Shown piece by piece: positions 16,466-23,767 of a stretch of 64,000 nt of DNA. The translations under genes and the position numbers were made by a program. Location of the stretch: the NCBI GenBank assembly GCA_947172415.1, contig OX359192.1:7240401-7304400 (forward strand). The letters run 5' to 3'. Source of the stretch: Chondrosia reniformis (taxonomy: Eukaryota > Porifera > Demospongiae > Chondrillida > Chondrillidae). Position 1 is the stretch's first letter, and every line of letters starts with the position of its first letter. A model generated the notes under the pieces. It had not been told where the DNA came from and did no database searches. It saw only the letters and a list, made by a program, of their open reading frames with translations.

Positions 16466-19400
16466 TTAATCTTGTCCGGTGCCAAAGTACCTATCTCCAT
16501 AGTTACCTACAAGAGGGAGACGGTACACATCTGATAACAGTGCATCTCACATTGTACAACTAGTACTTTGTGATATAGCTAACCAATTCCTGGAATAATG
16601 TGATAGTTTTTGCTGACTTTCTCATCAACTGCTGTCGTGATGATTTTAACTGTTGGATATGCATAAGCAACAGCATGTATTCCTATAGAAGTGAGTGTAC
16701 TCCCTTTACAGGTTGGTATCATTAAATCATACAAAACCTTACCTGGAAGAGCTGCGAGTATGGACAAAAAGAGGATATTTTCCTGAGGTACGCCATGATC
16801 CTGCAAAATGTTATCACACCCAGTATGTCTTCACTGTTAATATTCTTCTGATTCTCTATAGAGGACTATCTCCCCTCCCAATACATTTATTTTAAAGACA
16901 CAATCTCCATCTCTCTGTTACTCATTTCTATATATTATGGTTATTCCAACACAGTCTTACCCACCAAGCCGTCTCCCTCTTCATCTTACAAGTTCTTATC
17001 TATCAGCCCATCTCCCTTGATATTACATGATATTACTCACCAGTAGGACTCTGATAGCCATAAGAGCGGCTGCACCAGTAGCAACAGTGGCATCCATCAA
17101 CAACACATGACAAGACCCAATGCTGGCAGGAAGGCGTAGATAGTGCAACTGGAGGACAAAGGTCAAAGGTCATAGCAGGCAGTCTCCAGAGAACAGAAAT
17201 GTACCTCAGGTTCTCCAGAATGTTCATTCGTTTGAATAAGTATCTTTCCCACTCTGATATCCTTGCACACATTATGTAGAGCTGGTTCCAGCACCTCCCC
17301 AGCTCTCATGATGGAGATGGCTGCAAGCTTACCTCTGTAAACCTTGCCAGAATACTGCATCCCCTGAATGGTGTTCACCGTATGATCCTTATGGAACAAG
17401 ATGGAGAGCAACTACATGTGACACACGGGAAGAGGGTGGACATTAGTACCTCGTGGGTCAAGTAGGACAGGGCATGTTCAATTAGTAAGCTTGCCAATCG
17501 GTTGGTGTAAAACACAAAGTCATCTCGGGTGGTCTCTTTATCCCTGAGCAAACAAGCAGGCAGTTGACAGTTATGTCTGATACAAATGTCTCAATACTAT
17601 GCTAACAACCTTATAATGGTGTGCATAATTTTGGTCTGAGGTTGTTGAGGAAGAATGGACAGGGAGTCTGGATAAGTCATGTTTGTTGAAGAATGTTCTG
17701 TTAGCAACTTCTGGCGGAGGTTAAAACCTCTCTGCAAGTCAGAATACAAATGGATACTGCTACCTAGCAATAGTACAATTAATATTCCTACAAAGCACCT
17801 TTTCCAACTGATCTCTCACGTGTTGCACAATCAGTCCAACTGCCACCTCATTTTGGGATCCTACAGAACAGACACATTCAGGTATCCTCTATTGCTCAAT
17901 CCATTAATGGACATTCTCTAACTAATCCAACAACATGCTACATCTACTTTAGAGTAAAAGACCTACTGGGAACTAAACCACGTGAGAGCTTTGGATGAGG
18001 ATACAGTTTTTTCCTTCTCTTCTTCTCCATTCAGCCATGTCTTTATGTACATTGTATACAGAATTACAGTCTCATCTACATATGTGCATGCTGGGGGTGA
18101 TTTAGTTCTGTGCAGTACCATGCTGACCTCTCGGAACCACAATGTCGGCATGTACCATGGATGGGGCAATGTGGTGACTGAAGGCCTGCATACACAGAGC
18201 GGCAGCATCCAGTCATGTTGCATACACAGAGCAGCAGCATACACACACGAGGCTATTACTAATGTGTATCACAGCCAACGTACCGGCTTAACAAAGGTGT
18301 TGTACAACTTCAAGACTCCGTCCAGGTCTCTACCTCTGTCAGATATGTCCCTCTTTAACCTTCTTGCCAAACGCACATCAGAATCTGTGTCCACAAAGAT
18401 CTTTAGATCCATCAGCTGAAGATGGATAAATAGGTAACTGAATGTTCACAGGTTGTGTCATGATTGTGCAATACCTCCAGTAGCTCCTTCCAGACAAAGG
18501 TCATTATACCTTCAACTATAATCACATTGGCGCCATACAGAGATTGCTGGTACAAAACAATATTCATAGTCCACTAATGATATTCATAGCAAACAGCTGA
18601 GAGAATGTGTATATTATATTCTTACAGTATACTTGGCTCTGCTGTGAGTGTTAAAGTCATAAATGGGCACTTCAACCATCTTCCCCTCTCTTAACTTCTT
18701 CAAAGTGTCAACCATCAACTGGTAGTCAAATGCATCTAACCATTAAAATGTGTATTGAACTTTGATAAGGTCAAAAGTTCAGGGATTTGTATTAGCATTA
18801 CTTAGTACCATTAAGCAGGCCACAAACTACATGATTACCACACACCTGGATGATCAAAGTTGTACTCATTCTTTGCTGCCCTCAGATGCTCCTCTTCTGA
18901 TAGAACCTTGTAAAAGGAGTCCATAGAGAGAATACTAACCCAGGGAATGCCAAGTGTCTCAATGATCTTTGTAGCGAGGCTTGTCTTCCCGGATGCACTC
19001 CCACCAGCCAAACCTGTGCACATCACAACTAAATAAACACCTCTGAAATTGGACCACATCTCTAGTACACGTCAACCAAACATGCACATACTCAATCAAC
19101 AGCTACAAAGCACCTCTTGTTACCTATGATGAATGCTTCCTTAATTTCTCCATCTGAGTTGTACCATGGAGGTCTACCTATTGAGAGATGCAGTGGGTGA
19201 AATTGATGTGGTCAATCCACTATGCAACAGAGCACTGATTACATTACATATATAGGATTAACGAAGAGTTCGACTTCGAAAGTGAAATCTGTTCATAAGA
19301 TATTTTGAGAGCCACTTAATTAAATTAAATTCTCACGTTTGTGTCCTATTCACGAAGAAAGCATACAATCACTGTAAGGAGAAGTACTATGTCAATGCAC

Positions 19401-19648
19401 CTTTAGTATAGATTGTTTTGGTCCGTTTTCTTTTTTTCGCCGCCGACACGATATCTGGCGGGTTACCCGACACAATTGCGGTGCCAGGGGACGCTAAACG
19501 TTCTTCTCTGTGTCACAAGCATACGAGTACATAAAAACACCTTCAGATACTATGATTAATGGTAGGAATATTTTAATCACTTGTCTGATTCGCTTTCTGA
19601 TTCAGAAGAAGACACAGTAATCTGAAGTGATATCTTTCTATCTGACAT
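16466..19648 (-). CDS. UCKL1: UCKL1, uridine-cytidine kinase-like protein with UPRT-like domain
   Basis: Sixteen exons, 519 residues: 19581-19648, 19401-19507, 19124-19177, 18846-19013, 18626-18735, 18475-18546, 18284-18415, 18128-18185, 17799-17860, 17610-17731, 17450-17543, 17205-17411, 17041-17148, 16743-16800, 16584-16682, 16466-16506. The N-terminal half is a uridine kinase: P-loop [76 protein letters not shown] and ADIVVPRG. The C-terminal half is the uracil phosphoribosyltransferase-like module: [48 protein letters not shown] (PRPP loop position) and [10 protein letters not shown], ending [13 protein letters not shown]. Family role is pyrimidine-nucleoside salvage. The first two exons ([22 protein letters not shown], then a basic stretch [13 protein letters not shown] leading into RPPWY) lie in the segment duplicated at 23.3-23.8 kb. 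Confidence 0.93.
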
Positions 19649-19681
19649 TTTCAATCATTTTACACACCAAAAATGGCGGCA
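19208..19681. repeat. Left copy of a 474/479-bp direct repeat: UCKL1 5' end plus divergent promoter
   Basis: This segment is about 98% identical to 23289-23767, with some eight differences. It contains UCKL1 intron 2 (part), exon 2, intron 1, exon 1, the short upstream region and the first codons of the TEDC2 reading frame (ATGGCGGCA at 19673-19681, then diverging). In this copy the UCKL1 exons are intact and joined to the rest of the gene. Confidence 0.9.
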
Positions 19682-19720
19682 ACTTTAAATAAGAAATACA
19701 ATCGTTTACATTTGCTAATA

Positions 19721-22700: not shown

Positions 22701-23154
22701 AATATTAACGGCTTTCCTTCAATTGCGATTGCTTCATCGAGATACGACCATAGTGAAATATCGCATAGTTCCATAACGACACTGAATTGATTGGTGAGCG
22801 AATTACGCCAGATTCCGAAGTGTTGAACTACGTTCTCGTGATTAGCTCTGATAAGCTGCTCAGCATATTTTGATCTATCAGTTGCTATCAATTCGGATCC
22901 TAGTGATAGGTTCCTGTATTCTTTAATTGCACACTTAATTGACTCCCCTGTTTCCTTTTGATAGTACCCTTCAAACACATCAGAAAAGGTTCCAAAGGCA
23001 ATTAGCTCACGATCTCCTTCGCTACTTAGAAAATCTGCAGATTTTATCTGCTCAAAAAAGCAAAAAGAAGTAGCGCGATCAATAATAGGACATGTTTGAT
23101 AGAATCACGGTTATGGTTACATGTGACATTTGCCCGTAGACTCACATTTCCCAT
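19721..23154 (-). CDS. Myristoylated pseudokinase - coiled coil - Death domain protein
   Basis: Ten exons, 697 residues: 23146-23154, 22190-23047, 21943-22083, 21796-21864, 21433-21516, 21113-21184, 20580-20839, 20411-20523, 20104-20262, 19721-20049. The N-terminus MGNIKS fits an N-myristoylation signal (Gly2, Ser6). Residues about 15-285 are a tyrosine-kinase-like fold: glycine loop FGTFSDVF, CAIK with Lys45, a candidate helix-C Glu66, HGDLTAAN at 145-152, PPE at 192-194, DVFAYG. The DFG aspartate is replaced (VSNFSLG, Asn168), so Mg-ATP catalysis is doubtful. Exons 3-7 form a long coiled coil (VKLRLQLKMKEAELEKK and similar). A Pro/Ser/Tyr-rich linker follows, then a Death domain at about 590-680 (APFWKRLSRGLDLEESSVSQ, YQALHKWKSGEGK). 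Likely a membrane-tethered signalling adaptor; the pathway is inferred. It lies between two copies of the UCKL1/TEDC2 promoter. Confidence 0.85.
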
Positions 23155-23288
23155 TGCATATATATTTCCAATGCTGTCAAGTAGCCCTGCAAGGCTTCAA
23201 GACATACTGTAATGTGTTATAAGAAATTTACGGTCTGTGGTCTAGAGTAGAGTTCACGTGACTCGAGTGTGTCGCAATCCTTAGTATG

Positions 23289-23767
23289 GTGGTCAATCCA
23301 CTATGCAACAGAGCACTGATTACTTTACATATATAGGATTAACGAAGAGTTCGATTTCGAAAGTGAAATATAATCTGTTCATAAGATATTTTGAGAGCCA
23401 CTTAATTAAATTAAATTCTCACGTTTGTGTCCTATTCACGAAGAAAGCATACAATCACTGTAAGGAGAAGTACTATGTCAATGCACCTTTAGTATAGATT
23501 GTTTTGGTCCGTTTTCTCTTTTCGCCGCCGACACGATATCTGGCGGGTTACCCGACACAATTGCGGTGCCAGGGGACGCTAAACGTTCTTCTCTGTGTCA
23601 CAAGCATACGAGTACATAAAAACACCTTCAGATACTATGATTAATGGTAGGAATATTTTAATCACTTGTTTGATTCGCTTTCTGATTCAGAAGAGGACAC
23701 AGTAATCTGAAGTGATATCTTTCTATCTGACATTTTCAATCATTTTACACACCAAAAAATGGCGGCA
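23289..23767 (-). pseudogene. Right copy of the direct repeat: truncated UCKL1 5' end with frameshift
   Basis: Copy of 19208-19681. UCKL1 exon 1 is still open (one Asp-to-Asn change near its end). Exon 2 has lost one base in the poly-A/T run: ctttttttcgc at 19430-19439 corresponds to ctcttttcgc near 23515-23524. This breaks the frame before the basic KKRKRTK stretch. No downstream UCKL1 exon follows; the pseudokinase promoter does. The copy has only one likely function left, as promoter and first codons of the TEDC2 gene that starts at 23759. A 5-bp insertion near 23370 is another difference. Confidence 0.88.

Follow-up and report, generated by a model that had tools for sequence, protein, structure and literature searches.

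A kinase-Death gene between two copies of a UCKL1 gene start in the sponge Chondrosia reniformis

In plants, Wicker, Buchmann and Keller reported in 2010 that genes can be moved as filler DNA when double-strand breaks are repaired, as described in PMC3445842. According to that description, the moved fragment is copied by synthesis-dependent strand annealing, and the process can accompany the insertion of a transposable element (TE) or the filling of its target site. The balanced transposition polymorphism of yeast presented in PMC2682701 concerns four segments near telomeres that were demonstrated by crosses and by the sequencing of two strains, and three of the four confirmed segments had no sequence similarity at their junctions. 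A locus on chromosome 4 of the sponge Chondrosia reniformis, where a complete kinase-Death gene lies between two copies of the start of UCKL1 (uridine-cytidine kinase-like 1), belongs to this known kind: gene relocation without a transposon, with a flanking duplication. Its likeness to the plant case, in the account of PMC3445842, lies in a gene-bearing fragment at a non-collinear site, and its likeness to the yeast case of PMC2682701 would lie in single-copy gene segments found at different places in different individuals. It differs from plant filler DNA in that no close donor was found, its ends carry no TE signature and a 474-bp duplication flanks it; it differs from the yeast segments in being known from one assembly, at an internal site and with a flanking duplication. 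The literature searched, on the two genes and on bidirectional promoters combined with gene insertion or duplication, yielded no description of this locus.

The window, which is the whole 64,000-nucleotide stretch analysed (chr4:7240401-7304400, contig OX359192.1 of assembly GCA_947172415.1), lies on a chromosome of 8.954 Mb, and the genome searched comprises 117,379,552 bases in 15 contigs. Its central features, in window coordinates, are as follows.

19208-19681: left repeat copy, 474 bp, comprising part of UCKL1 intron 2, exon 2, intron 1, exon 1, a 24-bp spacer and ATGGCGGCA
23289-23767: right repeat copy, 479 bp, delimited by genome DNA search and alignment
19682..23288: segment between the repeat copies, 3607 bp
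19721..23154, minus strand: kinase-Death gene, ten exons, 692 aa, from a splice model and Pfam

The original prediction described two direct repeats of 474 and 479 bp, about 98% identical, and this description holds: the copies align with 468 of 480 columns identical (97.5%) and occur at just two places in the genome. They differ by substitutions at 5 of 473 ungapped columns (19243, 19274, 19433, 19585 and 19610) and by three indels of 5, 1 and 1 bp. A genome-wide DNA search with window positions 19200-19700, of a type that passes over very common words, matched the two copies only; the repeat is therefore neither a chance similarity nor a dispersed element. Region by region, UCKL1 intron 2 has 2 substitutions in 193 bp, exon 2 has 1 in 106, intron 1 has none in 73, exon 1 has 2 in 68, and the last 33 bp have none. 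Because the introns (2/266) are no more diverged than the exons (3/174), coding constraint on an old duplicate does not account for the similarity. Intron divergence had been proposed as a gauge of age; the low divergence of the two copies is compatible with a recent event. Over the whole repeat, divergence is 1.06% (95% interval 0.34-2.45%).

The anatomy of the locus, its intact and broken exons, the copy numbers in the assembly and the divergence are all direct readings, and the duplicated gene starts around a kinase-Death gene, first noted in the original prediction, are confirmed. The left copy does carry intact UCKL1 exons 1 and 2, both of them open, and UCKL1 exon 2 in the right copy is indeed frameshifted, one base short and with its frame lost. 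The two gene starts stand head to head as claimed, with the start codon of UCKL1 and the one in ATGGCGGCA 24 bp apart in the left copy. In the right copy, the ATG of the UCKL1 relic and that of the right-hand gene, which is called TEDC2-like here, are 25 bp apart, within the 1 kb expected of divergent starts in a head-to-head (bidirectional) gene pair. The gene between the copies is complete, as was also foreseen, and all nine of its introns begin with GT and end with AG. The features of the two neighbouring genes are listed below.

16478..19648, minus strand: UCKL1, located by tblastn with a human UCKL1 sequence; exons 1-2 lie in the left repeat
19581..19648, minus strand: UCKL1 exon 1, intact, in the left repeat
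19401..19507, minus strand: UCKL1 exon 2, intact, in the left repeat
23666..23733, minus strand: UCKL1 exon 1 relic, open, with one change (D to N) and an unchanged donor sequence
23487..23592, minus strand: UCKL1 exon 2 relic, 106 nt against 107, frameshifted
23759..26062 (end approximate), plus strand: TEDC2-like gene, exons read by eye from sequence and reading frames
19670..19680, plus strand: YY1/TISU-like word AAAATGGCGGC of the left copy; the repeat ends 1 bp later
23756..23766, plus strand: YY1/TISU-like word of the right copy, containing the start codon of the right-hand gene

The kinase-Death gene matches the Pfam families PK_Tyr_Ser-Thr (1.1e-29) and Death (6.6e-9), and a search of the PDB returned general kinase matches only. 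Its catalytic motifs CAIK and HGDL..N are kept, and the position of the DFG motif reads KVSNFSLG, with Asp changed to Asn to give NFS; by this motif loss the predicted product is a pseudokinase that has likely lost kinase activity. The linker between the two domains reads as coiled-coil-like, and we take the order of kinase followed by Death domain to be reminiscent of vertebrate RIPK1. The gene fills its segment closely, leaving 39 bp after the stop codon and 134 bp before the ATG; the latter stretch contains a CACGTG word. Five poly(A)-type signals were scanned over 423 bp from the stop codon and gave one site, an ATTAAA in UCKL1 intron 1. Sequence searches with parts of the UCKL1 and TEDC2-like proteins found no exon remnants of either gene within the 3.6 kb. 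Intron 4 holds a piece of a dispersed sequence that resembles a miniature inverted-repeat transposable element (window 21605-21756), with an imperfect inverted repeat at 21605-21709 seen by eye; 11 matches on eight chromosomes cover 21650-21756.

The identity of the minus-strand gene on the left as UCKL1 is clear from sequence comparison: the human protein matches its exons down to 16478 with a best E value of 4.5e-47, Pfam assigns one exon to the PRK/uridine kinase family, and exons 1 and 2 splice in frame to later exons that carry the uridine-kinase P-loop. Upstream of its ATG, UCKL1 retains 33 bp; farther out, the sequence belongs to the 3′ end of the kinase gene, with the stop codon of that gene 72 bp from the UCKL1 ATG. 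The name TEDC2 for the right-hand gene, which begins on the plus strand at the ATG of ATGGCGGCA, is tentative. Its protein matches no Pfam family above the cut-off, and tblastn with a human TEDC2 sequence gave no match within the gene. The local alignment score with TEDC2 was reached by 9 of 300 shuffles, and four collinear segment pairs, a biased set in that it was chosen by eye, were reached by 4, 9, 15 and 112 of 1000 shuffles. One exon contains an in-frame 27-bp tandem array of GAGTKCNSE-type repeats (window 24480-24870), through which the length of the TEDC2-like protein is likely variable.

Both copies of the repeat end one base past AAAATGGCGGC, a word that resembles the translation initiator of short 5′ UTR (TISU), whose consensus is SAASATGGCGGC. 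The match to this consensus is partial, with AAAA preceding the ATG. As described in PMC2518114, TISU lies just after the transcription start, contains the start codon and is bound by YY1, and genes that carry it have a median 5′ UTR of 12 nt; at this locus, too, the right-hand gene has its start codon inside the ATGGCGGC core. AAAATGGCGGC occurs 434 times in the genome (215 + 219), against 4 sites for the reversed word (2 + 2) and 8 for a dinucleotide-matched word (4 + 4), an enrichment of about fifty-fold over the latter. The dinucleotide-matched control was added because the reversed word has two CpG where AAAATGGCGGC has one. A YY1/TISU-like element thus seems, from these counts, to be widely used in this sponge.

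These boundaries alter how the duplicated unit is to be understood. The original prediction held that a divergent promoter had been duplicated and that each gene kept one copy, and this part fails: the unit is mostly UCKL1 gene body with a 33-bp tip, and since the repeat ends 1 bp past AAAATGGCGGC, UCKL1 kept those 33 bp upstream and not a full divergent promoter. The left copy was also said to end in the first codons of TEDC2. The 9 bp of the right-hand gene are present there, but 8 of the 9 fall inside a word that is enriched genome-wide. The right copy was said to drive an intact TEDC2; it does include the first codon of the right-hand gene, and support for calling that gene TEDC2 is weak. 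In this arrangement UCKL1 would start from the left copy and the TEDC2-like gene from the right copy, whose minus-strand side would face the kinase gene, 134 bp from its ATG.

The structure is well supported, and several histories could have produced it. We hold, with moderate confidence, that the kinase gene was inserted into a head-to-head site of UCKL1 and the TEDC2-like gene and that 474 bp of the target were duplicated in the process. The ancestral adjacency, the direction of movement, the mechanism and the expression of the genes are inferred. In the ancestor, UCKL1 on the minus strand and the TEDC2-like gene on the plus strand would have stood head to head, with their ATGs about 24 bp apart around the YY1/TISU-like word. 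A 3.6-kb fragment with one complete kinase-Death gene would then have been joined into the site by DNA repair, through either staggered-break fill-in or template switching during replication, leaving 474 bp of target on both sides. From then on, UCKL1 would take exons 1-2 and 33 bp upstream from the left copy, and the TEDC2-like gene would take its start codon and 5′ flank from the right copy, which on its minus-strand side would point toward the kinase gene. The right-hand UCKL1 exon 2, freed from coding, could then have gained its frameshift. One insertion accounts, without coincidence, for the right copy being in frame with its gene. Genome searches also favour insertion: the first 132 aa of UCKL1 matched no second locus, the sole extra match being the right-hand exon 2 relic, and a 159-aa part of the TEDC2-like protein matched its own place only. 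The insertion interpretation offered in the original prediction is supported in part, and is plausible but not proven.

Several observations weigh against this history. Since the word occurs 434 times, its presence at the left edge is alone no proof of old contact with the right-hand gene. The polarity proposed here is tentative, as the evidence comes from one assembly. A DNA search with 19683-23288 found the segment itself and 11 matches of 40-100 bp, all within intron 4, and thus no close donor for the 3.6 kb in this assembly. At the protein level, 135 of 218 candidates from the kinase-domain search were scored, one of them the gene itself and 134 at other places; none of these other places exceeded 43% identity, the highest value (over 79 residues, on chr8). 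The best-scoring relatives in this scored set are seven places between 398 and 532 kb of chr3, which are 34-40% identical. The 294-aa linker matched this locus only, and a stretch of chr7 has kinase and Death matches arranged as in the window gene, with about 5 kb between them. Short DNA matches confined to intron 4 and low protein identities together mark the kinase-Death gene, as far as sequence comparison goes, as a lone, diverged relative and no recent duplicate of anything found in the assembly. Without a close donor, a copy mechanism requires later loss of the donor; the donor copy elsewhere that is typical of filler DNA was not found, and cut-and-paste repair insertion would need none. 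Among the seven best-scoring kinase-domain places (chr3:397908-531901), three keep DFG and the others have altered motifs.

The age of the duplication can be set against the difference between the two haplotypes of the sequenced animal. The assembly report (PMC12181767) gives k-mer completeness at k = 31 of 69.43% for the primary assembly, 74.54% for the alternate and 93.73% for both. The haplotype difference derived from these values is 1.04% or 1.27% per base, depending on the denominator, a rough figure that indels and incomplete assemblies inflate. As a rough estimate, and provided that no conversion has homogenised the copies, the duplication dates from about the time when the two haplotypes of this animal separated. 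The closeness of the repeat divergence (1.06%) to this difference suggests that the event may be polymorphic still. The right-hand UCKL1 exon 1 is open and has its donor, so UCKL1 may also start at the right copy and splice 23666-23733 to 19401-19507, past the kinase gene. It is a tentative and rather unlikely proposal that the insertion is no older than a typical haplotype split and the empty site is segregating, with UCKL1 possibly beginning in the right copy and the kinase gene thereby lying inside an intron of UCKL1.

Long direct repeats at short range are no rarity on this part of the chromosome. A self-comparison of a continuous 104 kb of chr4 (the 50 kb before the window and window 1-54000, up to the arrays that follow) kept pairs of at least 100 bp, at least 80% identity and a gap of more than 300 bp, and it yielded 14 direct pairs. 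The UCKL1-start pair has the highest identity, followed by one at 96.5%, and the other 13 pairs belong to tandem arrays in the window or to the upstream 50 kb, some of them crossing the left edge of the window into positions 1-407. A cluster of recent local direct duplications, 89-99% identical, occupies chr4:7166831-7239278, about 20 kb left of the repeat. Probes from this cluster stay largely at home: a 1-kb probe matched 4 places, all in the cluster, and a 394-bp probe matched 8, of which 4 are there and 4 are short matches elsewhere. Comparison samples gave pairs of at most 89.8% identity in 30 kb of chr3 and no pairs in 9.5 kb of chr7; a 50-kb sample of chr5 fell in a highly repetitive region and was dropped. 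Window 55000-64000 carries arrays with units of about 157-170 bp, and 300 bp at 55677 appear again at 62033, 100% identical.

A less probable history, though the best placed of the alternatives, is tandem duplication of a larger segment that carried the repeat, a kinase gene close by and the TEDC2-like gene, followed by deletion of the first TEDC2-like gene and the second kinase gene. The duplications at 7.167-7.239 Mb indicate that tandem duplication is active nearby. This route needs three events within about 1% divergence, the DNA search with the segment found no second kinase gene, and the searches with parts of the proteins found no second TEDC2-like or UCKL1 locus. Somewhat more doubtful is the idea that the kinase gene is an old resident and that only the 474-bp piece moved, as a copy of the UCKL1 start that reached the gap separating the kinase gene from the TEDC2-like gene; ectopic conversion, with the YY1/TISU-like word as its anchor, may have brought it there. 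The piece does end 1 bp past a word that is common in this genome, and the kinase gene has no recent relative, as would be the case for an old resident; yet the piece must have landed in frame at the TEDC2-like start, and no guiding homology is seen at its other side.

An assembly artefact, in which stitched haplotypes show one gene start twice, is very improbable. The repeat divergence is close to the inferred haplotype difference, and 4 haplotypic duplications were removed by hand from the assembly according to PMC12181767. The same report gives about 70-fold coverage in high-fidelity (HiFi) reads, which makes an artefact unlikely; the mean read of about 13 kb (10.31 Gb in 0.80 million reads) spans the 4.6-kb locus, and the kinase gene meets each copy at a sharp, different boundary.

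Transposon insertion and retrocopying are rejected. A long terminal repeat (LTR) retrotransposon disagrees with a repeat that is found at two places only, codes for UCKL1 exons and has no dispersed copies. The flanks were examined in 12 comparisons of 200 bp with 100 shuffles each, in which the three top scores, all 22, compare with shuffle maxima of 24, 25 and 22 and are taken as chance. For the short target-site duplication of an LTR element, the outer flanks on the same strand score 14 against a shuffle mean of 16.0, and the boundary bases differ. For a cut-and-paste DNA transposon, the inner flanks in reverse complement score 12 against a shuffle mean of 16.6, and there is no terminal inverted repeat. 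A retrocopy is incompatible with ten exons and nine GT-AG introns.

The meaning of the insertion history depends on the empty site. If that site is found, the locus would be an unusually clean record of a whole intron-bearing gene entering a compact animal genome at a shared gene start. The target duplication would have left one intact start per neighbour, so the entry of the gene would have destroyed neither of them. The same finding would also show a Death-domain kinase gene landing beside a start region of another kind. If the insertion is segregating, it would show a complete ten-exon host gene in the act of moving, with no transposon involved, in a population of living animals.

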